DNA of 64,000 nt from Faecalibacterium duncaniae (GTDB lineage Bacteria > Bacillota > Clostridia > Oscillospirales > Ruminococcaceae). Both the position numbers and the translations under genes were made by a program. Location of the stretch: contig NZ_CP048437.1 in assembly GCF_010509575.1 (NCBI RefSeq), forward strand, positions 2,418,001 through 2,482,000, read 5' to 3'. The notes under the pieces are model-generated. The model saw only the letters and a program-made list of their open reading frames with translations. It ran no database searches and was not told where the DNA came from. Positions 13,550-34,412 of this stretch are shown piece after piece (position 1 is the first letter of the stretch; every line of letters starts with the position of its first letter).

Positions 13550-15160
13550 TTACTTGTTCAGCCAGCAGGCGGACAGATCCCAACAAGCAGTGAAGGCTTC
13601 GGTTGCGTGATCGTCGATGACGTAATCGTACTTGTACATGGAGGACTTATTCACGTACAGCACGCGGCCAAACAGGCAGGAGCCATCCTCGGCATCGTAG
13701 ATTGCTGCCTGCAGCTCCTTTTCCAGCTTGTGCTTCTCATCGGGATCCATGCAGCGGCGGATCTCCTCCAGCAACTCCATTTCCTTGTCGGGATGCTGGA
13801 TGCCCTTGGCGTAGTAAGCGCCGTTCTTGTCCAGATGACGACCCATGTACAGGCCCAGATCAGGAGCGATGGTTGCAAAGTGGAGCATCAGGCCCTCCCA
13901 GGTGCCATCCTTCATGTACTGGTTGTTGGTTGCGCTGTCCACCTGCTGGATGTTGCAGTGGATGCCCACCTCGTCCAGCATGTTGGCAATGGCCGTCAGC
14001 ATATCGGACATGCCGCTGATGGTGATAATGTTGGTGGTAAAACCATCGGCATAACCAGCCTCTGCCAGCAGGGACTTTGCCTTCTCCGGATCATAGGTAA
14101 AATGATTCAGGCTGTCGTTGTAGGTAGCGGAACCGGGAACTGCCCACTGGTCAGTCATCTGTGCCATGCCCATCAGGAATGCGGCGTTAATGGCATCCAC
14201 ATCGATGGCGTAGCACAGGGCGCGGCGGACACGGGCATCGGCCCAGGGGCCGTCAATGGCACTGTTGGGGATCAGACCCAGACTCTCGACACCCATGCCG
14301 TTCTGGTTATCTTCCTTGACGTAGATGCCTGCACCGTCCAGCTGCTGCAGGATGGTGGGATTGGCCAGACCTACCCAGTACATATCGTACTCGTTGGCCT
14401 GGAAAGCAGTGTTTGCGGTGCTGGACTCAGTGACAAGGGTCACCTCCACGGAATCCAGATAGGGCAGGCCCTCCTTCCAGTAATTCTCGTTCTTGGTGTA
14501 GATGGCGTAGGCGTTGTTCTCGAACTCGCTCAGCTGGAAGGGGCCGGTGCCGCAGGTGGCGGCATCCAGGCTGCTGGGGTTCTCCAGTGCCTTGGGGCTC
14601 ATGTAGTAGACGAAGAAGCCCACAGATTCCAGCGTGGAGGAGTTGGGCTCTGCCATCATCATCTTGATGTGGGTGTCATCAATGACCTCACAGGAAGCGA
14701 TGTTTGCGGTCTCGGTACGGTTGTTGGCCTGATACTCCTCGATGTTGCGCTTGACGGCCTCTGCATTGAAAGGCTCACCGTCGGCGAAATTGACGCCCTC
14801 CCGCAGAGTCCAGGTAATGCTCAGCTCATCGGTGTTCACATCCCACTCCGTTGCCAGATTGGGGATCATATTGCCCTCGGCATCATAGCTGGTCAGGCTT
14901 TCATAAGAAAGCGTCAGGTAGTAAATGGCCGCGTTGCCGGTGGCACGGGGGGTGTAACCGGGGGTGGCAATGGGGCTGGAATAGCACAGGCGCAGGGTAC
15001 CGCCTGCCTTGGGCTCACCGGTTGCTACTGCACTGGCAGCAGTGGAGCCAGCCGTGCCGGCTGCGGTGGAACTGGAAGAGCCGCCGCACGCGGCCAGTGT
15101 CAGGGCCGTTGCAGAAATGCCCATAGCCTTGAGGAAGTTCCGACGAGAGATACGTTTCAT
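13550..15160 (-). CDS. ABC importer substrate-binding lipoprotein, SBP family 5 (Opp/Dpp type)
   Basis: A 536-residue family 5 binding protein. The N-terminus has a twin-arginine-like SRRNFLKA followed by a hydrophobic stretch and lipobox LAAC near residue 24, then an Ala/Ser/Thr-rich linker. The mature part has family 5 features such as WTLREGVNFADGEPFNAEAV and the ARVRRALCYAIDV block. GGAG precedes the ATG. It is the first gene of the long minus-strand operon, so its ligand is probably what the downstream hydrolases process. Family 5 proteins bind peptides, but some bind oligosaccharides or glycosides, which the downstream GH1 and ROK genes would suit. Confidence 0.92.
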   Translation of the reverse strand: MKRISRRNFLKAMGISATALTLAACGGSSSSTAAGTAGSTAASAVATGEPKAGGTLRLCYSSPIATPGYTPRATGNAAIYYLTLSYESLTSYDAEGNMIPNLATEWDVNTDELSITWTLREGVNFADGEPFNAEAVKRNIEEYQANNRTETANIASCEVIDDTHIKMMMAEPNSSTLESVGFFVYYMSPKALENPSSLDAATCGTGPFQLSEFENNAYAIYTKNENYWKEGLPYLDSVEVTLVTESSTANTAFQANEYDMYWVGLANPTILQQLDGAGIYVKEDNQNGMGVESLGLIPNSAIDGPWADARVRRALCYAIDVDAINAAFLMGMAQMTDQWAVPGSATYNDSLNHFTYDPEKAKSLLAEAGYADGFTTNIITISGMSDMLTAIANMLDEVGIHCNIQQVDSATNNQYMKDGTWEGLMLHFATIAPDLGLYMGRHLDKNGAYYAKGIQHPDKEMELLEEIRRCMDPDEKHKLEKELQAAIYDAEDGSCLFGRVLYVNKSSMYKYDYVIDDHATEAFTACWDLSACWLNK

Positions 15161-18366: not shown

Positions 18367-20084
18367 GCTGTTTCTCCTTCCTTCTTCTGTAAGACCGGAT
18401 CTATCGGCAGGAACAGCTCCACCCTGGCACCGCCGCCCCGGCGGTTATTGGTAAAGGCGATGGCTGCCTGCTCCCCATAGAGCAGCTGCAGCCGCCGTAC
18501 CACATTGAACAGCCCGACGTGCTGTCCATTCTCCTCCTGCGGGGCTGCACTGTTCAGCTGCTTCAGATCCCCTGCCGTAAAGCCTGTGCCATTGTCCGCC
18601 ACCGAAAGATCCGCCATGCAGCCCTCTTCCGTTTCGAGGAGCTTTGCAGTGATCGTGATCTTCAGCGTTTTGCCGATCATCTTGCCGTGCTTGACGCTGT
18701 TCTCCACCAGCGTCAGCAGCGAGACCGGCGGCAAGGGCAATTCGCTGAGCTCCGGGTCGATCTCGCATACTACCTCCACGGGATCGTTCTGCCCCACGCT
18801 GGAAAGTTCCGCATAATTGCAGCACTGCTCGATCTCAGTGTGCAAAGGCGTTGTGGTCGCTGTAAAAGAGAGGATATAGCGCAGATACCGGCTCAGCAGC
18901 AGGATCAGCTGCTGGGCATCCTCGCGGCTGCCGGTCTGCACCATGGCATAGACACTTTTCAGGCAGTTGAGCACAAAGTGGGGCCGGATCTGCAGCTTAA
19001 GGGCGGTCATCTCGTTGCGGCGGGCTTCCAGCTCCTTTTCGTAACCGTCGATCTTCAGCTGGGTGATCTGGTCGATCATCCGGTTGAAGGTCTCGTTCAC
19101 CTGCGTAAACTCAGCGTTGCGATAATCCACACTGGAGCGCACCGAAAGTTCACCGCGGCCGATTCTGTCCATGGTGCTCACCAACGCCGTCATAGGGGCA
19201 AAGATCTCCTGCTTCATATAGAACAGGAGGAACGGGATCGCCAGCAGAACAAAAACAGCGCCCATCACCAGCAAGATCTGATACGGCGCAAAGTCCACCC
19301 CGAAATGCTGGTAGGGAACCAGATACAATACCGTCAGCGCTTTGACCTGTTTGCGCACCACCAGTCGGCTGTCCCTGCCCACCTTTGTCAGGCAATACCC
19401 TGCGCTGTTCCATTCCATCTTTGTGGGCAGAAGGTTGGCATCCCCTACCAACACATTGCCGCTGTCGTTCATCACAATGACCCGGCCGTCCAGCCCATAG
19501 TCTTTCACCAGTTCTTCAAACACCAGCCGCAGATCCACCGCAGCGGTCAGGCTGGCTTTCTGGTAGAAAACACTGCGCAGCAGGTAAAGCCGCTGGCCGA
19601 TGGTGCGCAGATACCATCCCTTTGTCACCATTTTATTGGTCTGGCCCGGCTGGCCGAGATACGCTTCCAGATTCAGTTTCTGCTTGAGCTGCTGGGCAGC
19701 TGCACCGTAGCGCCCCACATACAGGTTGCCTGAGCCGCTGCGCAGCACCACACCCATCAGGACATCGTTGGCAGCCAATACCGCCGGAAACCCCTGTGCG
19801 ATCTCATAAGCATCCAGGTAGGCGCGGGTGCGGTCGGTCTGTTCGCTCAGGCTGCGAAAGGTCGCATCGTTCAGTGACAGATTGAGCAGGTAGTTTTCCA
19901 CCGAATCTAGCTGATTCTCAAAATTTGTGGTAAACATATCAAGGCCACCGGATGCCGCAGCTGCCAGCCGATTGCGGTTATAAAGCCCTGAAAAAAAGAG
20001 CAGCAGCCCCAGCAGAATACCAATGGGAATGGCGATTCCCAGAAAGATCATTACAAGCTGCCTGCGTAATGATGGTCGTTCCAT
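18363..20084 (-). CDS. sensor histidine kinase, YesM-like (HPK7 class)
   Basis: A 573-residue membrane kinase. An N-terminal helix (about 10-35), an extracellular sensing region of roughly 235 residues and a second helix near 275-295 precede a HAMP domain with RIGRGELSVRSS. The phospho-acceptor His sits in QIRPHFVLNCLK and the ATP-binding domain has VENSVKHGK and DNGTGF. This is the His_kinase/HATPase arrangement of YesM/LytS-type sensors. AGGAGG is 12 bases before the ATG. It senses an extracellular solute, perhaps through the coupled lipoprotein. Confidence 0.92.
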   Translation of the reverse strand: MERPSLRRQLVMIFLGIAIPIGILLGLLLFFSGLYNRNRLAAAASGGLDMFTTNFENQLDSVENYLLNLSLNDATFRSLSEQTDRTRAYLDAYEIAQGFPAVLAANDVLMGVVLRSGSGNLYVGRYGAAAQQLKQKLNLEAYLGQPGQTNKMVTKGWYLRTIGQRLYLLRSVFYQKASLTAAVDLRLVFEELVKDYGLDGRVIVMNDSGNVLVGDANLLPTKMEWNSAGYCLTKVGRDSRLVVRKQVKALTVLYLVPYQHFGVDFAPYQILLVMGAVFVLLAIPFLLFYMKQEIFAPMTALVSTMDRIGRGELSVRSSVDYRNAEFTQVNETFNRMIDQITQLKIDGYEKELEARRNEMTALKLQIRPHFVLNCLKSVYAMVQTGSREDAQQLILLLSRYLRYILSFTATTTPLHTEIEQCCNYAELSSVGQNDPVEVVCEIDPELSELPLPPVSLLTLVENSVKHGKMIGKTLKITITAKLLETEEGCMADLSVADNGTGFTAGDLKQLNSAAPQEENGQHVGLFNVVRRLQLLYGEQAAIAFTNNRRGGGARVELFLPIDPVLQKKEGETA

Positions 20085-20106
20085 TTATTTTCAAACCTCC
20101 TGCTGC

Positions 20107-20135
20107 TTGCATCCTGCGGAAAATGCGATTATAAT
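20107..20135 (+). promoter_or_regulatory. promoter of the thioesterase gene, overlapping a divergent -10
   Basis: TTGCAT (20107-20112), 17-base spacer, TATAAT (20130-20135). On the minus strand a second TATAAT is formed by 20128-20133, so the divergent kinase operon probably starts from an overlapping promoter, though its -35 is poor. Confidence 0.75.
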
Positions 20136-20156
20136 AAAAACCGTCCAAGTCATTCC

Positions 20157-20170
20157 GTACAACGTTGTAC
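20157..20170. promoter_or_regulatory. LacI-type operator (perfect palindrome)
   Basis: GTACAACGTTGTAC is a perfect 14-base palindrome with a central CG, the usual form of LacI-family operators. It lies between the thioesterase promoter and its start codon, where bound repressor would block elongation. A 12-of-14 match lies in the promoter of the atuA operon at 21876-21889. The LacI-family gene at 20645-21685 lies between the two. Confidence 0.72.
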
Positions 20171-20195
20171 CACAATCAAAAAGAAGAGGCTCCTT

Positions 20196-20591
20196 ATGCA
20201 GGAACAGAACATTGCACAAATGCTTGAAAATCCATTCATGCAGTACAATCACATCGAGATCGTATCGGTAACGTCGGACAGCGCCGTCATGTCGCTGGAC
20301 ATCCGGCGGGACACCACCAACATCTACGGTTATGTGCACGGCGGCGCATTTTTCACCATGGCCGACTGCTGTGCCGGGCTGACTGCCCGCTCTGACGGGC
20401 GGCAGTATGTCACCCAGAATGCTTCGGTCAATTTCATCCACAACGTCAAAGCCGGTCACCTGACAGCCCGCGGCCGGACGGTCAGCCGCCGCCGACACAT
20501 CTGTGTGGTGGCTGTGGAGATCACAGACGAGACCGACACCCTGTTATTTTCCAGCACCTTTTCCATGTACTGTATCAGCGCCGAGGGCTGA
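20196..20591 (+). CDS. PaaI-family hotdog-fold thioesterase
   Basis: A 131-residue single hotdog-fold protein of the PaaI/YbgC-like group. VHGGAFFTMADCCAGLTAR (about 48-66) is the signature helix region with its conserved HGG, and the C-terminal strands fit the family. It should hydrolyse a small or aromatic acyl-CoA in the cytosol. The gene lies on the other side of the LacI regulator from a CoA-transferase operon and shares its operator motif. It may therefore serve the same pathway, releasing CoA from a product or a stalled intermediate. The substrate is unknown. Confidence 0.87.
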   Translation: MQEQNIAQMLENPFMQYNHIEIVSVTSDSAVMSLDIRRDTTNIYGYVHGGAFFTMADCCAGLTARSDGRQYVTQNASVNFIHNVKAGHLTARGRTVSRRRHICVVAVEITDETDTLLFSSTFSMYCISAEG

Positions 20592-20603
20592 CTGCTCTTT
20601 CTT

Positions 20604-20646
20604 CCCCGCACTGCGCACGTTTTGCGTGCCGGTGCGGGGCTTTTTT
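20604..20646 (+). terminator. intrinsic terminator of the thioesterase gene
   Basis: CCCCGCAC (20604-20611) pairs with GTGCGGGG (20632-20639); an inner GCACG/CGTGC extends the stem, and a run of T follows at 20641-20646. Confidence 0.88.
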
Positions 20647-21685
20647 ATTGTGCGGCGTATTCTGTCAGCGGCCCGCAGCTCTCCCTGGGAACATACTCGA
20701 TCGGCAGCAGTCGGCTTTCCGGCGTGGCAATCCGACCGTCCAGCTGCCCCAGCACCAGCTGGATACACTCCCGCGCCATATCCTCCATGGGCAGATAGAC
20801 CACGCTCAGGCTCGGGATCGAAAAAGCATCGGATTCCTCCGGGCCGTTGCCTACAGCGATCAGCCGGGGCAGCTTTTCGCCGATATATCCGGCCTCACAA
20901 AAAGCCCGCAACGCACCATGCGCAATGGCCGAGGAACCGCAGAACACTGCGTCCGGCAGCTGCTGCTTCCACTCATGCCGCAGCCGATGCGAAACCGCCT
21001 CGTAACCGCCTCGTATGCTGTTATCACAATACCGGTTGGCCAGGATCGTCAACCCGTGTTGCTCCCCTTCCAGCCGGAACCCATGCATCCGGTTTTCCAT
21101 CCCCTCAAAGACCGGGCTGCTCGTCAGAACTGCCGCCGTCTTGCATCCCTGATCGGCAAAAGCCCGCGCCGCCAGAGCACCCATCTTCAGATCATCCACA
21201 TTGACGCTGCAATACCCATTGCAAACACGGTTGTACAGTACCACCGGGATTGGCAGCTGCGTGTCCTCCAAAAACTGCAGGTCCGCATAGGACGCATTGC
21301 AGATGATGGCCGCATGGCAGTTTGCGCCACTGGTCAGTGCCTCGCTTTCCTTCAGGTGGTCGTTGACATACGGATAGATGACCAGCCGCACCGGACGTGC
21401 TGTTTTTTCGATCTCGGCCCGCAGACCATCCCAGAAGCGGAGCATCATGCTGGCTCGGAAATCCTGTGCCCAGAACATGGCCACCACCAGCTCATTGGCA
21501 CCGCTGCCGCCCCGCAGACTCCGGGCGGCCATATTGGGCTGGTAGCCAAGCCGTGCCGCCGCCGCAAAAATTTTTTCCTGCGTGGCCGTGCTGATCTTCC
21601 GCTCTGCCGCCTTGCCGCCCAAAACAATGCTGACCGTACTGGACGAGATCCCGACCTCCTGCGCGATCTGCTTGATCGTAACCAT
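20645..21685 (-). CDS. LacI-family transcriptional regulator
   Basis: A 346-residue LacI-family protein. The N-terminal helix-turn-helix and hinge read VTIKQIAQEVGISSSTVS and GYQPNMAARSL, and the rest is a periplasmic-binding-protein-like ligand domain. The ATG at 21685 has GGGGA eight bases upstream; a GTG four codons earlier lacks a site. It is divergent from the atuA-type operon and convergent with the thioesterase gene. A matching palindrome sits at each of those two promoters, so it probably represses both and responds to a pathway compound. Confidence 0.92.
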   Translation of the reverse strand: MVTIKQIAQEVGISSSTVSIVLGGKAAERKISTATQEKIFAAAARLGYQPNMAARSLRGGSGANELVVAMFWAQDFRASMMLRFWDGLRAEIEKTARPVRLVIYPYVNDHLKESEALTSGANCHAAIICNASYADLQFLEDTQLPIPVVLYNRVCNGYCSVNVDDLKMGALAARAFADQGCKTAAVLTSSPVFEGMENRMHGFRLEGEQHGLTILANRYCDNSIRGGYEAVSHRLRHEWKQQLPDAVFCGSSAIAHGALRAFCEAGYIGEKLPRLIAVGNGPEESDAFSIPSLSVVYLPMEDMARECIQLVLGQLDGRIATPESRLLPIEYVPRESCGPLTEYAAQ

Positions 21686-21717
21686 GCTCTTCCCCACCTT
21701 TTTCTGATATCAGGTTT

Positions 21718-21746
21718 ATTGTACCCGTTTCCCCGTATCTTGACAA
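21718..21746 (-). promoter_or_regulatory. promoter of the lacI-family gene
   Basis: On the minus strand TTGTCA (21741-21746), 17-base spacer, TACAAT (21718-21723), about 30 bases before the start codon. Confidence 0.75.
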
Positions 21747-21866
21747 GCCAAAAAAGCCTCTCCAATCTCAAACCAGCCGTTTTTGTGCACTCTGTATATT
21801 TTTCTTTTTTCTTTTTAGCCGTTTCAACAAAGTTGCATTTCTTTTCCTCCAAACTTCGTTTTTTTC

Positions 21867-21895
21867 TTGACATTAGTAAATCGTTGTACTACACT
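21867..21895 (+). promoter_or_regulatory. promoter of the atuA-CoA-transferase-transporter operon
   Basis: Consensus TTGACA (21867-21872), 17-base spacer, TACACT (21890-21895). The spacer is occupied by a LacI-type operator. Predicted transcript start is about 21902, giving a leader of about 70 bases. Confidence 0.85.
21876..21889. promoter_or_regulatory. LacI-type operator inside promoter spacer
   Basis: GTAAATCGTTGTAC matches the perfect palindrome at 20157-20170 in 12 of 14 positions and fills the space between -35 and -10. It also forms part of a longer imperfect repeat, AATCGTTGTACT with AGTACGACGATT (21879-21908, 11 of 12 complementary), so a second half-site may lie over the transcript start. 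Confidence 0.7.
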
Positions 21896-21910
21896 CAGTA
21901 CGACGATTGA

Positions 21911-21935
21911 GTCAAACGTTATACTGATGTTTGAC
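21911..21935. promoter_or_regulatory. inverted repeat in the atuA leader
   Basis: GTCAAAC (21911-21917) and GTTTGAC (21929-21935) are exact reverse complements 11 bases apart, just downstream of the predicted transcript start. It is either a second operator or a leader hairpin. Confidence 0.45.
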
Positions 21936-21972
21936 GCTGATATCACCTTTCCATTTATAAGGAGGCTATCGA

Positions 21973-23343
21973 ATGAAGAAAGTTGCAATCGGCGGTGGCC
22001 AGGGCTTCTGGGGCGACAGCCCGGACGCGGCCATCCACATGATCCGCAATGCCGATATCCAGTATATGGGCTGTGATTATCTGGCAGAGCTGACCCTTTC
22101 CATCATGGCAAAGCAGCAGCTCAAGGACCCCACCAAGGGCTTTGCGCCCGACTTCACCACCCGCATCCTGAAGGAGGCCGGCAAGGAAGCCTGGGACAAG
22201 CACATCAAGATCTGCACCAACGCAGGCGGCATGAACATCAATGGCTGCGTGGACGGCATCCGCCAGTGGGCAGAAGGCAACAGCATGAGCGGTTATAAGA
22301 TCGGTTATGTGACCGGCGATAACATCAAGGATAAGATCCCGCAGCTGCTGAAGGATGGCTGGACCTTCCCCAACTTCGACTACGACGGCAATTTCAACGA
22401 TATTCTGGACAAGATCTACAACTGCAATGTCTACATCGGCCATGAGGGCATTGAGGGATGCCTGGCAGAGGGTGCCGATGTGGTCATCACCGGCCGTGCG
22501 GCTGACAGCGCCCTGTTCCTGGCTCCGCTGAAGTACGAATTTGGCTGGGCTGCTGACGATTGGGACAATCTGGCCCGCGGCATCATGGCAGGCCATCTGC
22601 TGGAGTGCGGCGGTCAGGGTGCCGGCGGCAACTATATGTACGACTGGCGCAATGTCCCCCGCATGGACGAGCTGGGCTTCCCCATCGCAGAGCTGACCGA
22701 TGATACCTTTGAGATCACCAAGGCTCCCGACTGCGGCGGCATCATCTGCGAACAGAGCTGCAAGGAGCAGTTCCTGTACGAGGTCCACGATCCCGCCAAC
22801 TACCTGACCCCGGATGTCAACGTGGATATCAGCCATGCTACCATCACTCAGGTGGGTGACAACCGTGTCCGCATCGGCGGTGTCAAGGGCAAGCCCCGCC
22901 CCGACACGCTCAAGCTCTGCGTGGGTTACCACAAGGGCTGGAAGACTGTTTCCATGCTGAGCTTTGCATGGCCTGATGCCTACGAAAAGGCTCAGTACTG
23001 CGCCGAGGTCATCATGAAGAAGATGCAGCGCCGCGGCATGAAGGCCGACGACATCCACATCAGCTACATCGGCCTGAACAGCCTGCATCTGGGCGTGGCC
23101 GATATGAGCGAAGAGGCACTGAAGAACCTGAACGAGTGCGTGCTGCGCATTGCTGTGTTCAGTGAGGACAAGAGCGAGTGCGCCAAGATCATTCCCGAGA
23201 TCAGCCCTCTGCAGCTGAACGGCCCTCCGGGTGCCTCCTTCTTCGGCGGCCGTGCCCGCGTGCAGGAAGTGATGGCACTGTGGCCCACCACCGTGCCCCG
23301 CGATGCCGTACAGGTTGAAAGTCACATTCTGGAGGTGAAGTAA
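21973..23343 (+). CDS. AtuA-family protein (DUF1446; acyclic terpene utilisation type)
   Basis: A 456-residue cytosolic protein recognised as the DUF1446/AtuA family from its start VAIGGGQGFWGDSPDA and motifs such as CTNAGGMN, VVITGRAADSALFL and LLECGGQGAGGNYMYDW. The family is named for Pseudomonas citronellol/geranyl catabolism, but no enzymatic activity is firmly established. In many homologues a ferredoxin-fold C-terminal domain is fused; here it is the next gene. AAGGAGG lies eight bases before the ATG. It opens a LacI-controlled operon with a CoA-transferase and a carboxylate transporter, so it probably acts on an acyl-CoA or hydroxy acid. Confidence 0.85.
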   Translation: MKKVAIGGGQGFWGDSPDAAIHMIRNADIQYMGCDYLAELTLSIMAKQQLKDPTKGFAPDFTTRILKEAGKEAWDKHIKICTNAGGMNINGCVDGIRQWAEGNSMSGYKIGYVTGDNIKDKIPQLLKDGWTFPNFDYDGNFNDILDKIYNCNVYIGHEGIEGCLAEGADVVITGRAADSALFLAPLKYEFGWAADDWDNLARGIMAGHLLECGGQGAGGNYMYDWRNVPRMDELGFPIAELTDDTFEITKAPDCGGIICEQSCKEQFLYEVHDPANYLTPDVNVDISHATITQVGDNRVRIGGVKGKPRPDTLKLCVGYHKGWKTVSMLSFAWPDAYEKAQYCAEVIMKKMQRRGMKADDIHISYIGLNSLHLGVADMSEEALKNLNECVLRIAVFSEDKSECAKIIPEISPLQLNGPPGASFFGGRARVQEVMALWPTTVPRDAVQVESHILEVK

Positions 23344-23344
23344 G

Positions 23345-23674
23345 ATGGCAGAGATCTATCTGAACGATATTGCTCACGGCCGCTCCGGCGACAAGGGTGA
23401 TACCAGCAATGTCTGTGTGTATGCACGCAAACCGGAATACTATAAGATCATTGAGCGCGAGGTGACCCCCGAAAAACTCAAAGCCTACTTTGGCGACATG
23501 GTCAAGGGCGAGATCACCCGCTACGATGTGCCCAGCCTGAACGGCTTCAACTTTGTTATGAAGCACGCTCTGGGCGGCGGTGCCACCATGAGCCTGCGTC
23601 TGGACAGCCTGGGCAAATCCATGGGCAGTGCCGTGATGCGCATGAAGATCCACGTTGAGGATGGAGAGCTGTAA
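23345..23674 (+). CDS. AtuA C-terminal-like (ferredoxin-fold) small subunit
   Basis: A 109-residue protein whose N-terminus IAHGRSGDKGDTSNV is the hallmark of the domain found at the C-terminus of AtuA-type proteins. It ends with GGGATMSLRLDSLGKS. The start lies one base after the stop of the DUF1446 gene, so the two products probably form one complex equivalent to the fused protein. Its activity is unknown. Confidence 0.83.
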   Translation: MAEIYLNDIAHGRSGDKGDTSNVCVYARKPEYYKIIEREVTPEKLKAYFGDMVKGEITRYDVPSLNGFNFVMKHALGGGATMSLRLDSLGKSMGSAVMRMKIHVEDGEL

Positions 23675-23675
23675 C

Positions 23676-24890
23676 ATGAGTGAACATATGGCATTGGAGA
23701 ACCTGACGGTTCTCGACCTGACCCGTGTGCTTGCCGGCCCCTTCTGCACCATGATGCTGGCTGACATGGGCGCAAACGTCATCAAGATCGAGGTCCCCAA
23801 AGGCGGTGACGACACCCGCACCTATCCCCCCTTCCGTGCCAAAAATCTGAATGGTGAGCGGGAAAGCGTCTATTTTGCCAACATCAACCGCAACAAAAAG
23901 GGGATCACCCTGAACCTGAAGGCCCCTGAGGGCAAGGAGATCTTCAAGGAGCTTGTCAAAAAAGCGGATATCGTGGTGGAAAACTACCGCCCCGGCGTGA
24001 TGGACAAGCTGGGACTGGGCTATGATGTCCTGAAGGAGATCAATCCCCGCATCATCTATGCGGCGGTCTCCGGCTTCGGCTGCTACGGTCCCTACCACCT
24101 GCGTCCTGGCTATGATATTCTGGCTCAGGCCATGGGCGGTATGATGTCCATCACCGGTTCCAAGGGCGGAGAGCCCACCCGTGCCGGTTCGGCGCTGGGT
24201 GATATTCTGGGCGGACTTCATGTAACCATCGGCATCCTTGCCGCAGTCAACGCCCGCACCATTACCGGCAAAGGGCAGCGGGTGGACGTGAGTCTGATGG
24301 ATAGCATGATTGCTGCCACTGAGAACACTGCCCTGAAGTACATCGAGACCGGCAACATCCCGGCCCCCATGGGCAACCGTTATGCCGCTGTTTCCCCCTA
24401 CGACAGCTTCACCTGCAAGGGCGGCAAGGTCATCATCGCGGCAGGCAACCAGAAGCTGTACGAAAAGCTCTGCAATGAGGTGTTGGAACGCCCGGACATG
24501 ATCACCGATCCCCGGTTCGTGGATATGCCGGGCCGTCTGGCCAATCAGGATGCCATTGCCGAGGTCATTGAGGAGCGGATCAAAGATCTGACCCCCAACG
24601 AGGCCGCCGAGCTGGTACTGGCCCACGGCATCCCCGCAGGCCCCATTATGAACATCAAGGAGATCCTGGACGATCCCCATGTCAAGGAGCGCGAGATGTT
24701 CGTGGAAATGGATCATCCCACCCTGGGCAAGGTCACCGTGAACGGCTGTGCCATCAAACTGATGGACACCAAGCCCTCTGTGCGCACTCCCGCTCCCCAG
24801 CTGGGGCAGAACAACCGGGATATCTTTGAGGGTGTTCTGGGCATGACCGAAGAGCAGTTCAACGCTCTGCACGAGAAACAGGTGTTCTGA
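23676..24890 (+). CDS. class III (CaiB/BaiF-type) CoA-transferase
   Basis: A 404-residue family III CoA-transferase. It shows the N-terminal LDLTRVLAGPFCTMMLADMG, the VVENYRPGVMDKLG and ISGF-like AVSGFGCYGP motifs, and GKGQRVDVSLMDSM, where the catalytic Asp of the family lies (about 200-215). The chosen ATG (23676) has GGAGAG upstream and overlaps nothing. It should move CoA between carboxylic acids, here probably activating the acid brought in by the next gene's transporter or recycling CoA from a product. Confidence 0.92.
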   Translation: MSEHMALENLTVLDLTRVLAGPFCTMMLADMGANVIKIEVPKGGDDTRTYPPFRAKNLNGERESVYFANINRNKKGITLNLKAPEGKEIFKELVKKADIVVENYRPGVMDKLGLGYDVLKEINPRIIYAAVSGFGCYGPYHLRPGYDILAQAMGGMMSITGSKGGEPTRAGSALGDILGGLHVTIGILAAVNARTITGKGQRVDVSLMDSMIAATENTALKYIETGNIPAPMGNRYAAVSPYDSFTCKGGKVIIAAGNQKLYEKLCNEVLERPDMITDPRFVDMPGRLANQDAIAEVIEERIKDLTPNEAAELVLAHGIPAGPIMNIKEILDDPHVKEREMFVEMDHPTLGKVTVNGCAIKLMDTKPSVRTPAPQLGQNNRDIFEGVLGMTEEQFNALHEKQVF

Positions 24891-24930
24891 TCTCTGACCA
24901 CCTTTACACACATTATTGAGGAGAAATCAC

Positions 24931-26364
24931 ATGCTGGCAGTATTAGGGTTCGTCACCATTCTGCTGGTGCTGGCACTGATCATGAGCAAGAAGGTCTCTA
25001 CCCTTGTAGCTTTGATCTTTGTTCCCGCCATCACCGGCTTCATCGCAGCATTCATCAACGCCCCCAATGTCATCATCCAAGCCGCACAGGCTGCTGCTGA
25101 AAAGGCCGGAACTGCTTATGTTGAGCCGGTCATCACGTTCGGCACCCGCTTTACCAAGGCACTTTCCATCCTCAGCGCAGATTATATGGGCAAGGGCCTG
25201 AGCAGCATTGTTGCCACCGGTGTCATGTTCATCTTTGCCATCCTGTTTTTCAGTACCTGCTCGGATGCCGGTGTCTTTGATCCTATCATCAACCGCATCC
25301 TGAAGTTTACCGGCGAAGACCCCGTCAAGGTCTGTATCGGCACCTTCCTCATCGGCTGCATCTGCCATCTGGATGGCTCCGGTGCCACCACCTTCCTGAT
25401 TGCCATCCCCGCCTGTATGCCCCTGTTCCAGAAGCTGAAAATGAACCTCTGGGTAGAGGCTACCATCGTGGCACTGGCCGCCGGTATCATGAATGTTATG
25501 CCCTGGGGCGGCCCCACGGTCCGTGCAGCCGCAGCCATGTCCGGCCTGGGCTATGAAGTCACCGGCAGTGAGCTGTGGGTGGGCATCATGCCCGCCTGGA
25601 TCGCAGGCTTGGTGACCTGTCTGCTCGTCGCGGCTTTCCTGGGCAAAAAGGAAGCCAAGCGCATTGCTGCAGGCATCCCCGCGCAGGAGGTCACTGGTCT
25701 GACCGAAGCAAAGACCACCAACACCTCCAACGAACTGGCCCGCTCCGGCTGGCGCTGGTACTTCAATGTGGCACTGATCCTGGTCATCCTGTACATCCTC
25801 GTTACCAACCGCCTCAGCCCGGCTGTCACCTTTATGATCGGCTACTGCGTCCTGCTCATCGTCAACTACCCCAGTGTGGATCTGCAGCACAAGATCATCA
25901 ACAGTCACGCACAGGCCGCATTCCTGATGGTCTCCATCGTCTTTGCCGCAGGCGCATTCACCGGTGTGGTCAAAAATTCCGGTATGCTGGCTGCCATGAC
26001 CGACGCTCTGGTCTCCATCATCCCCACCAGCATGGGCACCTTCATTGCCCCCATCGTCGGCCTGTTCAGCGTTCCGCTGAGCCTGCTGTTTGACCCAGAC
26101 TCCTACTACTACGGTGTTATGCCTGTCATCGCCAACGCTGTTTCCGCCATGGGCGGCAACGCACTGGCTGTGGCAAAGGCTTCCATCATGGGCCAGATGA
26201 CGCTGGGCTTCCCGCTCAGTCCCCTGACGGGTGCCACCTTCCTGCTGCTGGGCCTTTCCGGCCAGGACCTGGGCGACCACCAGAAGCACACCCTCCCCTA
26301 CGCATGGGCTGCATCTGCTATTATGGTCGCTGTGGGCTGCGTAGCCTGTGGGCTGCTGTTCTGA
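24931..26364 (+). CDS. CitMHS-type citrate/carboxylate:cation symporter
   Basis: A 477-residue membrane protein with about 12 hydrophobic segments. Conserved parts of the CitMHS family are visible: ILFFSTCSDAGVFDPII, CHLDGSGATTFLI and MPWGGPTVRAAAA in the first half, and DPDSYYYGVMPVI and FPLSPLTGATFLL in the second. GAGGAG precedes the ATG. Characterised members carry citrate, often complexed with a divalent metal; other tricarboxylates are possible. As last gene of this operon it is the likely entry point for the pathway. Confidence 0.9.
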   Translation: MLAVLGFVTILLVLALIMSKKVSTLVALIFVPAITGFIAAFINAPNVIIQAAQAAAEKAGTAYVEPVITFGTRFTKALSILSADYMGKGLSSIVATGVMFIFAILFFSTCSDAGVFDPIINRILKFTGEDPVKVCIGTFLIGCICHLDGSGATTFLIAIPACMPLFQKLKMNLWVEATIVALAAGIMNVMPWGGPTVRAAAAMSGLGYEVTGSELWVGIMPAWIAGLVTCLLVAAFLGKKEAKRIAAGIPAQEVTGLTEAKTTNTSNELARSGWRWYFNVALILVILYILVTNRLSPAVTFMIGYCVLLIVNYPSVDLQHKIINSHAQAAFLMVSIVFAAGAFTGVVKNSGMLAAMTDALVSIIPTSMGTFIAPIVGLFSVPLSLLFDPDSYYYGVMPVIANAVSAMGGNALAVAKASIMGQMTLGFPLSPLTGATFLLLGLSGQDLGDHQKHTLPYAWAASAIMVAVGCVACGLLF

Positions 26365-26451
26365 GGTCTCACCAAAAGAAACACCTTCCTCCTTTTTCAC
26401 CCATTCCTTCATTCTGATTCCGAAACGTCTGCCGGGCGGAGTACCCGCAGC

Positions 26452-26524
26452 ACGCCACGGAATGCGTGCAAACCAGCAGACTTCCACCCGGTGCTCCGGG
26501 TGGTGTCGGCTGGTTTTGCCGTTT
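26452..26524 (+). terminator. multi-hairpin terminator-like structure
   Basis: AAACCAGC (26470-26477) pairs with GCTGGTTT (26509-26516), enclosing a perfect 8-bp hairpin (26484-26491 with 26496-26503, loop TGCT); TTTTGCCGTTTTT follows. A small GCACGC/GCGTGC hairpin precedes it. It most likely ends the transporter operon; no clear promoter is seen between here and the next gene at 26571, so some read-through may feed it. Confidence 0.65.
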
Positions 26525-26570
26525 TTGAAGGATACCACCCTGCCCTTGGGGCAGAAAGGAGTTTTCTCTT

Positions 26571-28049
26571 ATGCCCGAGCCCATCCAGACTCCTGTTCCT
26601 GCGGCGGACGAACTGGCCGCACAGGTGCTGCTGCTGGCACAGAGTCGGTTGACTGCCGACCTGCGTTTTTTATCCTCCGCTCTGGAACAGCTGAAGCCGA
26701 TTCCCGTCCCTGCGCTGGACACCCTGTTTGCCGGGGATGGCCGCTGCTTATACTATTGCCCCGAGACGCTGCTCCGCACATTCCGGGCACAGCAGTCTGT
26801 GCCCACACGCGCCCTGCTGCATGTCACCCTGCACTTTCTTCTGGGGCATCCCTTTCAACGGCAGGAAATGGATCACCGCCTATGGAACCTTGCCTGCGAC
26901 ATTGCCGCAGAGGAAGTCATCCGGGAACTGGAGATCCCCTCCTGCGCCCTGCCGGATGATGCTATGCAGGACAGCTGGCGCAGCCGCCTGCAGGATGCCT
27001 GCCCTCACCTGACGGCAGAAGCCATCTATAATTTTCTGCTGGAACGGCAGTACCCCGCCGATGTTCTGGCGGAATTGACCCAGCTTTTTTCCCGGGACAG
27101 CCATGCGCTCTGGTATGCTGCGCCACGGCCCTGCTCTCGTCCGGCCCCCAACGGACAACTGCTGCCCGCCGGGGAGGATGAGGATATCACCAACGAGATC
27201 GAACTGCGCAAAGCCGACACCCGGGACGAAACGCTGCAGCAGATGCAGCAGCGGCAGAAGGAAGCCCTGCGCAGACAATGGAAGCAGCTGGCCCGCCAGG
27301 CCAAGACTGATCTGGAGACCTTCAGCCGCCGTCACGGCAAGCGTGCCGGAGCATTGATGGATGGGTTAGAGCCTGTGACCTTTGAGGAATGCGACTATAC
27401 CGACTTTCTTCGCCGGTTCGGGGCACAAAACGAGGTGCTGCAGCTTTCCGAGGACGAATTTGACCTCATCTATTACACTTACGGTCTGCGCACCTACGGC
27501 AACATTCCCCTGGTCGAGCCGCTGGAATACCGGGACGACAAGCGCATCCGGGAATTTGTGATTGCCATCGACACCTCCGGCAGTGTGCAGGGCGATATCG
27601 TTCAGAGCTTTTTGCAGCGCACCTGCGATGTTCTGCGGCAGAGCGGTTCCTTCACCGAGCGGGTAGATATCTATCTCATCCAATGCGATGCCGAGGTGCA
27701 GAGCGTGGAGCGGCTGACCAGTCTGGACCAGCTGCATGAGCTGATCCCCCGGCTGAAGCTCCGGGGCTTCGGCGGTACCGACTTCCGGCCGGTGTTCGCC
27801 TATGTAGACAGGCTGCTGGAAGAGAAAAAGCTGACGAACCTCAACGGCCTGCTCTATTTTACCGACGGCGTGGGCACCTACCCAGAAAAATCCCCTGCCT
27901 ACAAGACTGCCTTCATCTTTAACCGTGACGACCACATCAGCCCCCACGTTCCCAGCTGGGCCATCCGGGCTGTACTTACCACTGACAACATCCGCCTGCT
28001 TGAACCGCAGAAGACCCGAACCGAGGAGGACACCGAACCATGGATATAG
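26571..28049 (+). CDS. VWA-like protein with N-terminal putative metallopeptidase domain (DUF2201 type)
   Basis: A 492-residue cytosolic protein. The N-terminal half carries an HxxxH in LLHVTLHFLLGHP (about 82-94) and a downstream AAEEVI helix, as in the DUF2201 putative metallopeptidase family. The C-terminal half is a von Willebrand A domain with the MIDAS motif FVIAIDTSGSVQ (about 325) and a later GFGGTDFRPVFAY. AAAGGAG precedes the ATG. It overlaps the MoxR-type ATPase gene by 10 bases. VWA/MoxR pairs act as chaperone or metal-insertion machines in characterised cases; the client here is unknown. Confidence 0.85.
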   Translation: MPEPIQTPVPAADELAAQVLLLAQSRLTADLRFLSSALEQLKPIPVPALDTLFAGDGRCLYYCPETLLRTFRAQQSVPTRALLHVTLHFLLGHPFQRQEMDHRLWNLACDIAAEEVIRELEIPSCALPDDAMQDSWRSRLQDACPHLTAEAIYNFLLERQYPADVLAELTQLFSRDSHALWYAAPRPCSRPAPNGQLLPAGEDEDITNEIELRKADTRDETLQQMQQRQKEALRRQWKQLARQAKTDLETFSRRHGKRAGALMDGLEPVTFEECDYTDFLRRFGAQNEVLQLSEDEFDLIYYTYGLRTYGNIPLVEPLEYRDDKRIREFVIAIDTSGSVQGDIVQSFLQRTCDVLRQSGSFTERVDIYLIQCDAEVQSVERLTSLDQLHELIPRLKLRGFGGTDFRPVFAYVDRLLEEKKLTNLNGLLYFTDGVGTYPEKSPAYKTAFIFNRDDHISPHVPSWAIRAVLTTDNIRLLEPQKTRTEEDTEPWI

Positions 28050-29515
28050 CAAGTGCAAAGCAACAGATCAAAAATACCGTACAGATCTACCTACAGAAGG
28101 ATGCTCTGGGCCGCTACCGACTTCCGCTGGTGCACCAGCGGCCCATCTTCCTGCTGGGTGCGCCAGGTCTGGGCAAGACTGCCATTATGCAGCAGGTCGC
28201 TGATGAGATGGGGCTTGGCCTTGTGAGCTATTCCATGACCCACCACACCCGCCAGAGCGCACTGGGTCTGCCTGTGATCGTAGAAAAGGAATACGGCGGC
28301 AAGCACTATCAGGTCAGCGAATACACCATGAGCGAGATCATCGCCAGCGTCTACGACTGTATGCGCACCACCGGCAAAACGCAGGGCATCCTGTTTCTGG
28401 ACGAGATCAACTGCGTCTCCGAGACTCTTTCCCCTGCCATGCTGCTGTTTCTGCAATACAAAGTCTTTGGTGGGCATCAGATCCCCGAGGGCTGGGTGGT
28501 GGTCACCGCCGGCAACCCGCCCCGCTTCAACAAAAGCGTCCGGGAGTTCGACGCTGCCACCCGTGACCGCCTGAAGGTGATCGAAGTTGAGCCAAGTTAT
28601 GAAGCATGGAAGGCCTATGCGCTGGAACACGGTGTCAGCCGCAGCGTCATCAGCTATCTGGATATCCGTCCCGAAGATTTTTACAAGGTCGAGACCACTG
28701 TGGACGGTCTGACCGTGGTAACGCCCCGTGCCTGGGAGGACCTTTCCGAGATTCTGCAGTATCACGAGGAGCTGGGCCTTGCAGTCGGCGAGGAGCTGAC
28801 TACCCAGTATCTGCAAAACAAGCAGGTCGCCCGGGATTTTGCCATCTACTACGAACTCTATCAGAAATATCGTCAGGCCTACAATATTGATGCCATCCTG
28901 CAGGGTGTGTGGGATGAGGATGTCCTCACGCAGGCACGCAGCGCCAAGATGGACGAGCGGATGAGCCTTGTCAGCCTGCTGCTGGAAGCCGTGTTCCTGC
29001 AGATGGAACGCTGTACCCTGCGCCACGATGCGCTGCGCCTTATCGTGGCCGCCCTCAAAGCCCAGCGCGGGACGCTGGATGTTCCCGGCGATGCCCTGAC
29101 CGCCCTCGCCGGGCTGGAGGACAACTGGCGCGCCGAAGCCAACAAAGCCCCCTCTGCCCGGCAGAAGGTCTATCTCGATCTGCTGTCGCTGACTGCCCAA
29201 TGGCACGGAGAACTTTCCGGCTCCACCCCTTTTTCTGCCCTCAAGGCCTGCTATCAGCGCTCGGTCGCCGACCTGCAGGCTGAGGTCGCTGAAACGCAGA
29301 AGAAGCTTGGCAATCTGCTCCGTTTTTTACAGGAAGCCTTCGGTAAGGGAACGGAGCTGAGCATGGCGGTAAACGATCTGACCGTAGCCCCCGTGGCCAC
29401 CGCATTTCTGGGGCAGTTTCTCAGCACCGATTACTTTGCAGCCAGCCGGGATCTGCTGCTGCACCGGCAATCGGAGCAGCTGCTGCACCAGATCGATCTG
29501 ACAGGACTGGTGTAA
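28040..29515 (+). CDS. MoxR-type AAA+ ATPase
   Basis: A 491-residue AAA+ protein. Walker A GAPGLGKTAIM lies near residue 36, Walker B GILFLDEINCV near 115 and a sensor-1 VVVTAGNPPRFNKS near 155; an Arg-containing TRDRLKVIEV follows. The C-terminal 200 residues are helical and not shared with the shortest MoxR proteins. It overlaps the VWA gene and is separated from the LRR gene by one base, so the three are made together. It probably remodels a target bound by the VWA partner. Confidence 0.88.
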   Translation: MDIASAKQQIKNTVQIYLQKDALGRYRLPLVHQRPIFLLGAPGLGKTAIMQQVADEMGLGLVSYSMTHHTRQSALGLPVIVEKEYGGKHYQVSEYTMSEIIASVYDCMRTTGKTQGILFLDEINCVSETLSPAMLLFLQYKVFGGHQIPEGWVVVTAGNPPRFNKSVREFDAATRDRLKVIEVEPSYEAWKAYALEHGVSRSVISYLDIRPEDFYKVETTVDGLTVVTPRAWEDLSEILQYHEELGLAVGEELTTQYLQNKQVARDFAIYYELYQKYRQAYNIDAILQGVWDEDVLTQARSAKMDERMSLVSLLLEAVFLQMERCTLRHDALRLIVAALKAQRGTLDVPGDALTALAGLEDNWRAEANKAPSARQKVYLDLLSLTAQWHGELSGSTPFSALKACYQRSVADLQAEVAETQKKLGNLLRFLQEAFGKGTELSMAVNDLTVAPVATAFLGQFLSTDYFAASRDLLLHRQSEQLLHQIDLTGLV

Positions 29516-29516: not shown

Positions 29517-30899
29517 ATGGAACTGCTGCAATTTGAAGTAACCAACGCCGGAACGCTGGGCAGCCGCTGGACCCCCCCCGCCCCGGAAACAAAAAAGGCC
29601 TCCTCCCTGCCCGGAGCCGCACTGGCAGCTCTCTTGCAGGAGGAGGATGACGAGGATGATTGGGGCGGTGATGCTCCCGACATGAGCGCAGAGTTTGCAC
29701 GGCTCGGCCATCTGAACGAAGAGGCCGACACCGATGCCCTGCCCCTGACAGCCGATTTTGCCCCTCTGCCGGATGGCTCTCTGGCGCTGGTGCGCTGGCC
29801 CCGGCTGGCACGGCCTGCTGTGGTACCCGACACTGTAGAAGGCCGCACTGTCACCGCCATTGCCGCTACCGCCTTTGCTGCCAGCCATCTGGATGAGAGC
29901 TGCTTTGCGCAGTTCGGGCAATCGCCTATCAGTTTCAGCATATTTTGTATGCGAATGGGCCGCGCAGTCACCACCGAAACGCTGGACGAAGGCGGGCCGA
30001 CTTCCGTCACACTGCCGGACAGCATCACTCACATTGGTCCCTACGCGTTCTACCACTGCACAAATCTGACTTCCATCACCCTGCCGGATGCCATTTCCGC
30101 CCTGCCTGCCGGTGTATTCGGTGACTGCAGCCGCCTTACCAGCGTCCATCTGCCAGAGCAGCTGCAGGCTCTGGGCTATCTGCCCCGCCCCACGGATCAG
30201 ATCATGCCGGATGTGGGCACGTTTGCCGGGTGTCATGCTCTGAAACAGCTGACGCTGCCCCCACAGCTTAAAATGCTGGGCGCTCACAGCTTCAACAGTT
30301 CCGGTCTGGCGACCCTGACCGCTCGGGATGCTGGGTGTGAAAATTGGAGTCGTACTGTCACTGTGGCTGTGTCTGCATTTGACCACACTGCCGCACTGCT
30401 CTGGCTGGAAAAGGCCGATGTTTCCGGCCATGTGGTGGCGCGGCTGGGTCTACCCGTGGCCCGGGATAAAATTCTGGCAGGCGATGCCAAATTCGGAGCC
30501 ATCCTGCGGGTACCGGTGCTGTTCTTCACCCAGCCGATTCCCTACTTTGACCAACTGGCCCGGGACGCGTTCCGGCTGGATTTCTCGGCTCGTATGGCGC
30601 TGGCTCGGCTGGAAGCCTCTGCAGGGCTTTCCCCCGCCGACCGCCAGTGGTATTGTGCAGTTCTGGTGCAGTATTTCGACCGGGCTCCACAGTTCATGCC
30701 CTGCCCGCCTCAACAGGCTTACGCAGAGCTGTTCCGCTTTCTCTGCCGCACAGACCTGCTCACCGCATCTGATGTCAGCACCCTGCTTCGGATGGCCGGA
30801 GCACTCGCCCTTCCCGCCGAACTCATCAGCGAGATGATGGAGGTGCGCACCCGCCGGTTTGAAACAGTCACCGGCTTTGAGGATCTGGAGTTGGATTGA
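29517..30899 (+). CDS. cytosolic BspA-type leucine-rich-repeat protein
   Basis: A 460-residue protein with no signal peptide. A low-complexity acidic stretch (EEDDEDDW, about residues 42-49) is followed by BspA/LRR_5-type repeats around residues 160-260 (TSVTLPDSITHIGPYAFYHC, TSITLPDAISALPAGVFGDC and a third). The C-terminal 180 residues are helical with no recognised motif. BspA-type repeats are usually on surface proteins, so a cytosolic copy tied to a VWA/MoxR pair is unusual and suggests a substrate-recognition or scaffold subunit. The start is one base after the ATPase stop. Confidence 0.78.
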   Translation: MELLQFEVTNAGTLGSRWTPPAPETKKASSLPGAALAALLQEEDDEDDWGGDAPDMSAEFARLGHLNEEADTDALPLTADFAPLPDGSLALVRWPRLARPAVVPDTVEGRTVTAIAATAFAASHLDESCFAQFGQSPISFSIFCMRMGRAVTTETLDEGGPTSVTLPDSITHIGPYAFYHCTNLTSITLPDAISALPAGVFGDCSRLTSVHLPEQLQALGYLPRPTDQIMPDVGTFAGCHALKQLTLPPQLKMLGAHSFNSSGLATLTARDAGCENWSRTVTVAVSAFDHTAALLWLEKADVSGHVVARLGLPVARDKILAGDAKFGAILRVPVLFFTQPIPYFDQLARDAFRLDFSARMALARLEASAGLSPADRQWYCAVLVQYFDRAPQFMPCPPQQAYAELFRFLCRTDLLTASDVSTLLRMAGALALPAELISEMMEVRTRRFETVTGFEDLELD

Positions 30900-31430: not shown

Positions 31431-32417
31431 TCACTCTGCCTGTATCTCCTCCACCAGCGGCAGATAGTCGGCACAGTATTTCCGGTATAGCGGCTGCACC
31501 AGTTGCCGGAAGTTCTGCATTTCTTCTTCGGGCAGCGGCAGTTCCCGGCACCCGCCAGCCAATGCCGCTTTTCGGGCGGCGGTTTCCTCCTGTGCCCAGA
31601 GCTGGCGCTCATACTGCGCCGATGCCCGGGCGCATGCCTGCAGGATCTGCCGGTATTCCTCCGGCAGTGCATCCCATGTGCGGCCGGAAGCCAACTGCAC
31701 CTCCGGTACGCGGCTGTGCTCATCGGCCATGTAGTACCGTGCCACCTTGTAGTGCTCCATGGAATAGTAGGCCGGCCAGTTGTTTTCGGCGGCATCGATC
31801 TGCCCGGTCTCAAGCGCCGAGTAGACGTCGCTGTACGCCGTGGTCTCCGGCACTGCACCCAGCAGGCGGATCATGTCGATCACGATCTGCGAATTCTGCA
31901 CGCGGATGGTCTTGCCCTGTAAATCGTTCAGGCTGCGCACCGGCTGACGGGCATAAAACGAGCGGGCACCCGCGTCGTACCAGCTCAGGCCTACCCGTCC
32001 CTGTGCGGTAAAGTCCTGCAAAAACTCAGCCCCGATGCTGCCGTCCAGCACACGCCACATGTGGTCGGCATCCCGGTAGAGATACGGCAGCAGCAGTACG
32101 TTGAGCCGGGGCAGATCGTCCGTGACCACCGAGAGCGACACACGGGCAAAATCTACGCCGCCAATGGCAAGCTGTTCCCACACCTGCTGTTCCGAGCCGT
32201 ACTCGCCGTTCGCCTTGACCTGAATGACCACCTTGCCCCCGGTCTGCTGCTGCACAAGGTCCGCAAAATACTGCGCGCCCTGCGTGGTGGGGTATCCGGC
32301 GGGCTGGTTGTCGGCATAGGTCAGCACATAGTCCGGTGTAGTCTGCAGCTTTGCAGCACAGCCTGCCAGCTGCAAGGCTGCAAAGCCCAGCCCGGCTAAA
32401 AAAGTCCGTCTGCGCAT
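31431..32417 (-). CDS. TRAP transporter solute-binding lipoprotein (DctP type), second copy
   Basis: A 328-residue DctP-family protein. The N-terminus has MRRRTFLAGLG and a lipobox LAGC near residue 19. Family features are VWEQLAIGGVDFA, the conserved Arg region GKTIRVQNS (about 170) and DAAENNWPAYYSMEHY. It has its own promoter and lies downstream of the dctM terminator, so it is expressed apart from the DctPQM operon. It may offer the same permease a second ligand. No other TRAP permease is in the window. Confidence 0.9.
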   Translation of the reverse strand: MRRRTFLAGLGFAALQLAGCAAKLQTTPDYVLTYADNQPAGYPTTQGAQYFADLVQQQTGGKVVIQVKANGEYGSEQQVWEQLAIGGVDFARVSLSVVTDDLPRLNVLLLPYLYRDADHMWRVLDGSIGAEFLQDFTAQGRVGLSWYDAGARSFYARQPVRSLNDLQGKTIRVQNSQIVIDMIRLLGAVPETTAYSDVYSALETGQIDAAENNWPAYYSMEHYKVARYYMADEHSRVPEVQLASGRTWDALPEEYRQILQACARASAQYERQLWAQEETAARKAALAGGCRELPLPEEEMQNFRQLVQPLYRKYCADYLPLVEEIQAE

Positions 32418-32440
32418 GGTGTCTCCCTCCCTTTGCAGAT

Positions 32441-32470
32441 AGTATAGCGCACAAGACTGCCTTTGTGCAA
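32441..32470 (-). promoter_or_regulatory. promoter of the second dctP-type gene
   Basis: On the minus strand TTGCAC (32465-32470), 18-base spacer, TATACT (32441-32446), ahead of GGGAGGGAG and the start codon. Confidence 0.75.
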
Positions 32471-32478
32471 GAGACAGG

Positions 32479-32518
32479 AAAAGGCAGTACCCGCCGCAAA
32501 GCAGGTACCGCCTTTTTT
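32479..32518. terminator. bidirectional-looking terminator after dctM
   Basis: GGCAGTACC (32483-32491) and GGTACCGCC (32504-32512) form a stem flanked by A-run and T-run, so it can act on either strand; it ends the minus-strand TRAP operon. Confidence 0.75.
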
Positions 32519-32541
32519 AGGAGAAGAAGGGAACGTCTCAG

Positions 32542-33843: not shown

Positions 33844-33846
33844 AGC

Positions 33847-34401: not shown

Positions 34402-34412
34402 GATGCTCCTCC

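Follow-up and report, generated by a model that had tools for sequence, protein, structure and literature searches.

An AtuA pair encoded with a CoA-transferase and a citrate-family symporter in Faecalibacterium duncaniae: a candidate module for the catabolism of 3-hydroxy-3-methylglutarate

In PMC4847356, an AtuA-family enzyme is described as making an acetate-releasing cut in 3-hydroxy-3-alkylglutaryl-coenzyme A (CoA), the Pseudomonas AtuA is assigned to an analogue of 3-hydroxy-3-methylglutaryl-CoA (HMG-CoA) with a longer side chain, and a Thauera protein of the family, 615 amino acids long, is accompanied by carboxylase and hydratase partners. The Thauera protein is probably one fused chain. 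Here, a window of 64,000 nucleotides from the butyrate-producing gut bacterium Faecalibacterium duncaniae (NCBI RefSeq assembly GCF_010509575.1, contig NZ_CP048437.1, forward-strand positions 2,418,001 to 2,482,000; coordinates below are counted from the first nucleotide of this window) was analyzed. Unlike in Thauera, its AtuA system is split into two chains, AtuA and AtuA-C, which are encoded together with a class III CoA-transferase and a CitMHS-family symporter. With a confidence barely better than even, we read this operon as a catabolic module for 3-hydroxy-3-methylglutarate (HMG).

The predicted fold of the window AtuA matches one solved enzyme, the large subunit CmlA of citramalate lyase (CmlAB) from E. 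coli O157 (PDB 9erq and 9evf); every other fold in the match list covered at most about 100 residues of the model, which is no exclusion of further fold relations. Invariant columns of the AtuA alignment include E39, D116, R175, D178, E211, C212, E270 and K314. The initial annotation had stated that AtuA activity is not established, which no longer holds for the family as a whole, the characterized relative being a distant one: CmlA is 25% identical to the window protein over 239 residues and sits on a very long branch of the AtuA tree. The systems also differ in their small subunits, as CmlB, the counterpart in 9erq, hits only PF14330 (DUF4387), whereas the window subunit matches PF23544 only and not DUF4387. 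The E. coli stretch that was retrieved ends within the cluster and carries no annotated CoA-transferase. Citramalate and HMG have the unit HO-C(CH3)-CH2-COO- in common, and CmlA, judged by its PDB name, would perform a cut analogous to the one predicted for HMG-CoA. In a Firmicutes genome, a DUF4387 gene (L105:10445-10753) likewise comes after the gene of a distantly related AtuA, which suggests that CmlAB-like pairs are present outside E. coli.

HMG-CoA lyase (MvaB/LiuE, HMGL-like, PF00682) acts on the substrate that is predicted for the AtuA pair. Its products are acetyl-CoA and acetoacetate according to PMC6941031, whereas acetate and acetoacetyl-CoA are predicted here. By profile the two enzymes are unrelated, AtuA matching PF07287 only and not PF00682.

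The atuA gene (21973-23343, plus strand; PF07287, 428.1 bits, cut-off 22.8) encodes the predicted large subunit of the HMG-CoA-cleaving enzyme and is the one PF07287 gene of the single-contig 3.10 Mb genome. It is followed on the same strand by the genes for the small subunit AtuA-C (23345-23674; AtuA_ferredoxin PF23544, 100.3 bits, cut-off 27), the class III CoA-transferase (23676-24890; CoA_transf_3 PF02515, 442 bits), which is the predicted HMG CoA-transferase, and the symporter (24931-26364; CitMHS, Pfam 91.7 bits), the predicted HMG importer. Both AtuA subunits thus score above the curated family cut-offs. With gaps of 1, 1 and 40 nucleotides the four genes form a tight operon. The longest open reading frames of the CoA-transferase and the symporter begin with TTG at 23655 and 24916; the ATG starts at 23676 and 24931 give the better spacing. 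Divergent from the operon lies the gene for a LacI-family regulator (20645-21697, minus strand; LacI PF00356 and Peripla_BP_3 PF13377), and beyond it one for a 4HBT (hotdog) thioesterase (20196-20591, plus strand; Pfam 54.8 bits). These genes are real, and the names given to them initially are correct; the layout needs amending in that the thioesterase gene is convergent with the LacI gene and does not belong to the atuA transcript. A terminator-like hairpin (20619-20640, plus strand) lies between the two; nine such patterns were found in 20050-26700, compared with 5.0 expected from shuffled sequences.

In the pathway proposed here, the CitMHS protein would import HMG, the class III CoA-transferase would form HMG-CoA using a cellular CoA donor, and AtuA with AtuA-C would cleave HMG-CoA next to its free carboxyl group in a retro-aldol reaction, yielding acetate and acetoacetyl-CoA. 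The latter could enter the thiolase and butyrate genes of the genome. This upholds the earlier reading of the parts, in which a carboxylate is taken up, activated with CoA and then transformed by the AtuA pair. The further step of CoA release by the thioesterase is not needed, because acetoacetyl-CoA can be passed to the butyrate genes. The genome has one TIGR01930 thiolase gene, which stands in a crt-hbd-bcd-etf run. The translations of this run, inspected by eye, resemble crotonase, 3-hydroxybutyryl-CoA dehydrogenase, acyl-CoA dehydrogenase and Etf, and a CoA-transferase-like gene lies close to it. The two PF00682 genes of the genome, likewise inspected by eye, are LeuA-like (567 amino acids) and of the pyruvate/oxaloacetate decarboxylase type (470 amino acids), and no HMG-CoA lyase was seen between them. 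If the model is right, the balance would be HMG + 4[H] = acetate + butyrate + H2O by arithmetic, and HMG would act as an electron sink.

The CoA-transferase has its best solved match in SUGCT (PDB 9br7; 297.4 bits, query residues 6-391), a succinate-hydroxymethylglutarate CoA-transferase likewise of class III. The alignment pairs aspartate with aspartate ('salgdilgg' and 'amtdlatg'), as expected for class III, and this residue is presumably the catalytic one. The HMG specificity of the window enzyme is a prediction, and for SUGCT we know of no lyase partner. The symporter belongs to the CitMHS family (TIGR00784, 342.1 bits, cut-off 259.7), with HMG as its predicted cargo. HMG is citrate with a methyl in place of one carboxyl group.

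The grouping of these genes was examined in 52 loci, namely the window and those 51 of 55 fetched loci that have an AtuA gene call; a neighbour was counted if a homologue occurred within six genes of AtuA. AtuA-C was found in 48 of the 52 and the CoA-transferase in 42, while a LacI gene was present in 27 and a CitMHS gene in 7. Such recurrence of partners shows that the grouping is not due to chance. The closest loci are from Faecalibacterium (L002, 95% AtuA identity; F. gallinarum L006, 92%), and two genomes farther removed (L102 and L103, AtuA identity 48 and 47%) have the same four-gene core. The 90% cluster of the window protein contains 2,675 sequences, and at least 7,777 of 8,000 candidates scored matched at E ≤ 1e-10, a set that spans more than the clade of the window. 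In a sister AtuA clade (L092:7749-10782, 35% identity) CitMHS and AtuA-C are present, with no match to the window CoA-transferase in that stretch; this clade may perhaps be a free-acid lyase.

Support for HMG-CoA as the substrate comes from gene neighbourhoods. In L042, AtuA and AtuA-C stand together with a permease and an HMG-CoA reductase matching TIGR00532, the model for the degradative enzyme (494 bits, cut-off 260), and no CoA-transferase was called across the 21 kb of this locus. Its AtuA is 67% identical to that of the window and is nested in the window clade in a quick tree (sister to L040 with SH-aLRT 98; clade of 18 rows with 100). A run of reductase, AtuA and AtuA-C was also found on two haloarchaeal plasmids, of Halalkalicoccus (reductase 435 bits) and Salinigranum, where the reductase and AtuA genes overlap by 4 nucleotides. 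Elsewhere, reductases of the TIGR00532 type stand beside an HMG-CoA lyase gene, in L058 (341 bits, cut-off 246) and more weakly in L057 (179 bits, below the cut-off), and in Rhizobium L130 an annotated lyase gene lies about 2 kb from such a reductase. Since the same reductase model adjoins or nears lyase genes in these genomes, the AtuA pair appears to occupy the place where an HMG-CoA lyase would be expected.

Two further kinds of neighbour fit this picture. A thiolase gene comes immediately after the CoA-transferase in 10 of the 52 loci and after AtuA-C in one more, 11 in total, which is what acetoacetyl-CoA as a product would predict, and the one thiolase tested against models (L016) scores best with those for acetyl-CoA C-acetyltransferase. 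Moreover, distant AtuA pairs are accompanied by an acyl-CoA carboxylase and an enoyl-CoA hydratase in L095, L100 and L101 (the L101 hydratase by eye) and, by annotation, in L110, L111, L113 and L131; L098 has the carboxylase alone. This context is as expected for routes making 3-hydroxy-3-alkylglutaryl-CoA. A leucine degradation route was considered for Natrinema L131 and rejected: the match of its E1 is to a pyruvate dehydrogenase model and stays below the cut-off, and no isovaleryl-CoA dehydrogenase model is among the matches listed for its acyl-CoA dehydrogenase. L131 is therefore counted as carboxylase and hydratase context only.

Several observations weigh against HMG-CoA cleavage. The reductase is adjacent in 1 of 56 loci (the window and all 55 fetched); none of the six Firmicutes genomes with a TIGR00532 reductase (398 searched) has AtuA within the 1.5 kb flanks, one of the six (G274) having AtuA genes elsewhere; AtuA overlaps the reductase match in 2 of 37 plasmid records, six of which had their flanks inspected; and in three other haloarchaeal reductase records no AtuA is annotated within 6 kb. 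Some reductases matching TIGR00532 (L060, L061) lie, by eye, amid mevalonate biosynthesis genes, and for this reason the direction of the reductase is only presumed for L042 and the archaeal loci. The carboxylase of L100 is closest to propionyl-CoA carboxylases, the dehydrogenase there being closest to short-chain and acryloyl-CoA types, and none of the carboxylase neighbours could be assigned as methylcrotonyl-CoA carboxylase. In 41 of the 52 loci, the window among them, no thiolase is near AtuA. For the CoA-transferase, formyl-CoA transferase 10uh ties with SUGCT (296.0 versus 297.4 bits), and all seven NCBIfam models matched remain below their curated cut-offs, the best being succinyl-CoA:mesaconate CoA-transferase (349.5 bits, cut-off 700). 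Furthermore, 9evf is a complex with ADP and pyruvate, so that by analogy a nucleotide may take part, which lies outside the simple mechanism. We know of no assayed enzyme of this AtuA clade, and among the open-licence papers listed in the literature searches none names HMG as an AtuA substrate in its title or the beginning of its abstract. Confidence in HMG catabolism was set no higher because the reductase pairing is rare, the carboxylases are of no settled type and the CoA-transferase matches are tied or below cut-off.

Among the alternatives, the pair might be a citramalate or citramalyl-CoA lyase like CmlAB, the CoA-transferase activating citramalate or mesaconate and the products being pyruvate and acetate or acetyl-CoA. 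The sole strong structural match is indeed a citramalate lyase, the mesaconate enzyme is the best, sub-cut-off model of the CoA-transferase, and in L028 a MaoC-type hydratase gene precedes the CoA-transferase gene; however, the low identity to CmlA, its long branch and the different small-subunit families argue against this, and citramalate would leave both the HMG-CoA reductase neighbours and the thiolase unexplained. We regard it as unlikely, the least so of the three alternatives. A little further down we place another 3-hydroxy-3-substituted glutarate or a plant or host tricarboxylate as substrate, for instance citrate itself or an acid whose side chain is longer. The citrate family of the symporter would suit it, and such a related acid is kept in consideration by L013:3345-6390, where AtuA, AtuA-C and the CoA-transferase are followed by a split pair of aconitase X genes and by a permease of the CitMHS/DASS type; a relative of aconitase X acts on mevalonate phosphate in archaea. 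The longer analogue assigned to Pseudomonas AtuA in PMC4847356 points the same way. Against it, the reductase-linked AtuA of L042 falls inside the window clade, and HMG-CoA reductase handles HMG-CoA by established enzymology.

The least likely of the three is that the pair cuts free HMG into acetate and acetoacetate, the CoA-transferase then activating acetoacetate to acetoacetyl-CoA. CmlAB acts by its name on free citramalate, the truncated E. coli stretch shows no CoA-transferase, and the placement of the thiolase fits equally well, but relatives beside HMG-CoA reductase or beside a carboxylase and a hydratase would meet CoA esters, and none of the NCBIfam models matched by the CoA-transferase is an acetoacetate transferase. 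HMG catabolism by way of HMG-CoA thus remains our preferred reading. Its substrate was probably missed by the initial annotation, which had listed citrate, aconitates, itaconate, citramalate and methylcitrate: HMG fits best, with citramalate still a rival, and for models specific to citrate, aconitate, itaconate or methylcitrate the related loci show nothing favouring them over HMG. The earlier judgment that terpene degradation by the Pseudomonas route is unlikely agrees with our scans, in which no carboxylase, hydratase or acyl-CoA dehydrogenase appeared among the window genes scanned. The Pseudomonas Atu pathway was rejected on this ground, no linked partners being present among the genes scanned within 2153-41082, a part of the window (no genome-wide search was made).

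Acetyl phosphate as a product was only an idea and was dropped, since a search of 81 loci gave no relative of the phosphotransacetylase-like protein of L110 in the 80 others. Its gene (L110:5958-7004) overlaps AtuA in Rhodococcus gordoniae, and together with the ADP in 9evf it hints that a nucleotide or acetyl phosphate might be involved in the reaction.

The regulator has the DNA-binding and ligand domains of a LacI-type repressor, and a palindrome forming a predicted operator lies at the atuA promoter, in line with the LacI control proposed earlier. The promoter-like sequence TTGACA-17-TACACT (21867-21895, plus strand) matches the consensus at 10 of 12 positions; eight such patterns were found compared with 3.3 expected from shuffles. 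A predicted operator site with two mismatches to AGTACAACGTTGTACT lies within it (21875-21890), and a second, operator-like site with three mismatches is located just past it (21910-21925). Upstream of the thioesterase gene, the motif search identified a putative LacI-type operator (20156-20171) with the 14-bp core GTACAACGTTGTAC, the sole exact copy of this 14-mer in the 3.1 Mb genome. At two or fewer mismatches the core occurs at five places in the genome, including the atuA promoter, compared with one for a reversed control pattern.

The palindrome AGTACAACGTTGTACT recurs upstream of atuA in relatives. The survey covered the 51 AtuA loci, the window included, whose upstream stretch is 150 bp or longer; the consensus was built from observed sites, and the loci that provided them count by construction. 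Within 300 bp of atuA, 27 of the 51 loci have a site with three or fewer mismatches, six of them exact. In the 19 loci with a divergent LacI gene, 13 reach this threshold, two have four mismatches and four have five. Eight more loci (L019, L020, L021, L022, L023, L024, L025, L044) have sites with three or fewer mismatches farther upstream, mostly ahead of the first gene of the run, which encodes an ABC importer component or CocE. A thioesterase homologue is present in one of the 55 other loci (L006), with a two-mismatch site close upstream at 4789 and the LacI gene about 3.4 kb away. The thioesterase is outside the conserved core by these comparisons and is probably a member of the regulon. 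Because its promoter carries the only exact palindrome core of the genome, the five-gene LacI regulon assumed at the outset gains support for Faecalibacterium, as judged from sequence. The predicted sign of regulation is negative: LacI would keep the operon, and probably the thioesterase gene as well, repressed in the absence of a putative inducer.

Downstream of the operon, the plus strand encodes a VWA-like DUF2201 protein (26571-28049) and a MoxR-like AAA ATPase (28040-29515), each near AtuA in 11 of the 52 loci, and a BspA-type leucine-rich repeat (LRR) protein (29517-30899; 10 of 52). In L030 and L044, genes of the VWA, MoxR and LRR types lie between atuA-C and the CoA-transferase gene. 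MoxR-VWA pairs often mature enzymes. Farther on, TRAP transporter genes, two DctP proteins and a two-component system (31431-37966) were found, as well as a Fic/DOC-family gene (40075-41082) near a tRNA-Leu (41586-41669).

On the other side, a minus-strand run extends over 2153-15160. It comprises a substrate-binding protein of the peptide/nickel type (13550-15160; by model and identity), two ABC permeases (11516-12454 and 12470-13435; 61-71% identical to their best hits in AtuA loci), two dipeptide-type ABC ATPases (9557-10519 and 10531-11514; the first by model, both by identity), for which the six best AtuA-locus hits show 74-85% identity (e.g., L015, L016, L025), and a CocE/NonD-type hydrolase (7832-9532; TIGR00976, 294 bits; 70% identity to L022_6), found near AtuA in 22 of 52 loci. 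Taken together, the genes in 7832-15160 are 53-85% identical to AtuA-locus homologues among their best hits, and in several Lachnospiraceae loci a dipeptide-type ABC importer is encoded within the AtuA operon itself, as is a CocE/NonD hydrolase. No operator site with four or fewer mismatches was found near 15160. Profile scans of 2153-7813 (minus strand) identified a GDSL esterase, a Mem_trans (auxin efflux carrier family) permease, a ROK kinase, a GH1 6-phospho-beta-glucosidase and a carboxylesterase. The latter is 52-54% identical to the products of genes directly after the CoA-transferase gene in L041 and L052, and in L006 relatives of the ROK kinase and GH1 genes lie downstream of the AtuA operon. 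With its importer, three esterase-type hydrolases, kinase and 6-phospho-beta-glucosidase, the run looks like one for the use of acylated beta-glucosides, which suggests that HMG or a similar acid may be released from such esters.

A wider proposal joins these points and is, as a whole, rather doubtful. In it, AtuA with AtuA-C would be a second, unrelated cleaver of HMG-CoA in Bacteria and Archaea; in Faecalibacterium of the human gut, HMG, coming in part from HMG-acylated plant glucosides through the neighbouring esterase and beta-glucoside genes, would be converted to acetate and butyrate; the MoxR-VWA proteins may mature the pair; and relatives would close a gap in Snodgrassella alvi. According to PMC11343714, this bee symbiont takes up HMG in culture and makes acetate from it, the first two steps being unannotated. 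A CoA-transferase and an AtuA pair would supply exactly two steps and are candidates for this gap. If the HMG reading of the operon is right, there would be a second, evolutionarily unrelated natural route to cut HMG-CoA, and a function for a gene clade currently labelled as terpene utilization or DUF1446. It would also provide candidates for a gap in Snodgrassella HMG metabolism that is made explicit in PMC11343714, and HMG, a small acid occurring in the metabolism of hosts and plants, would be a growth substrate feeding gut butyrate.

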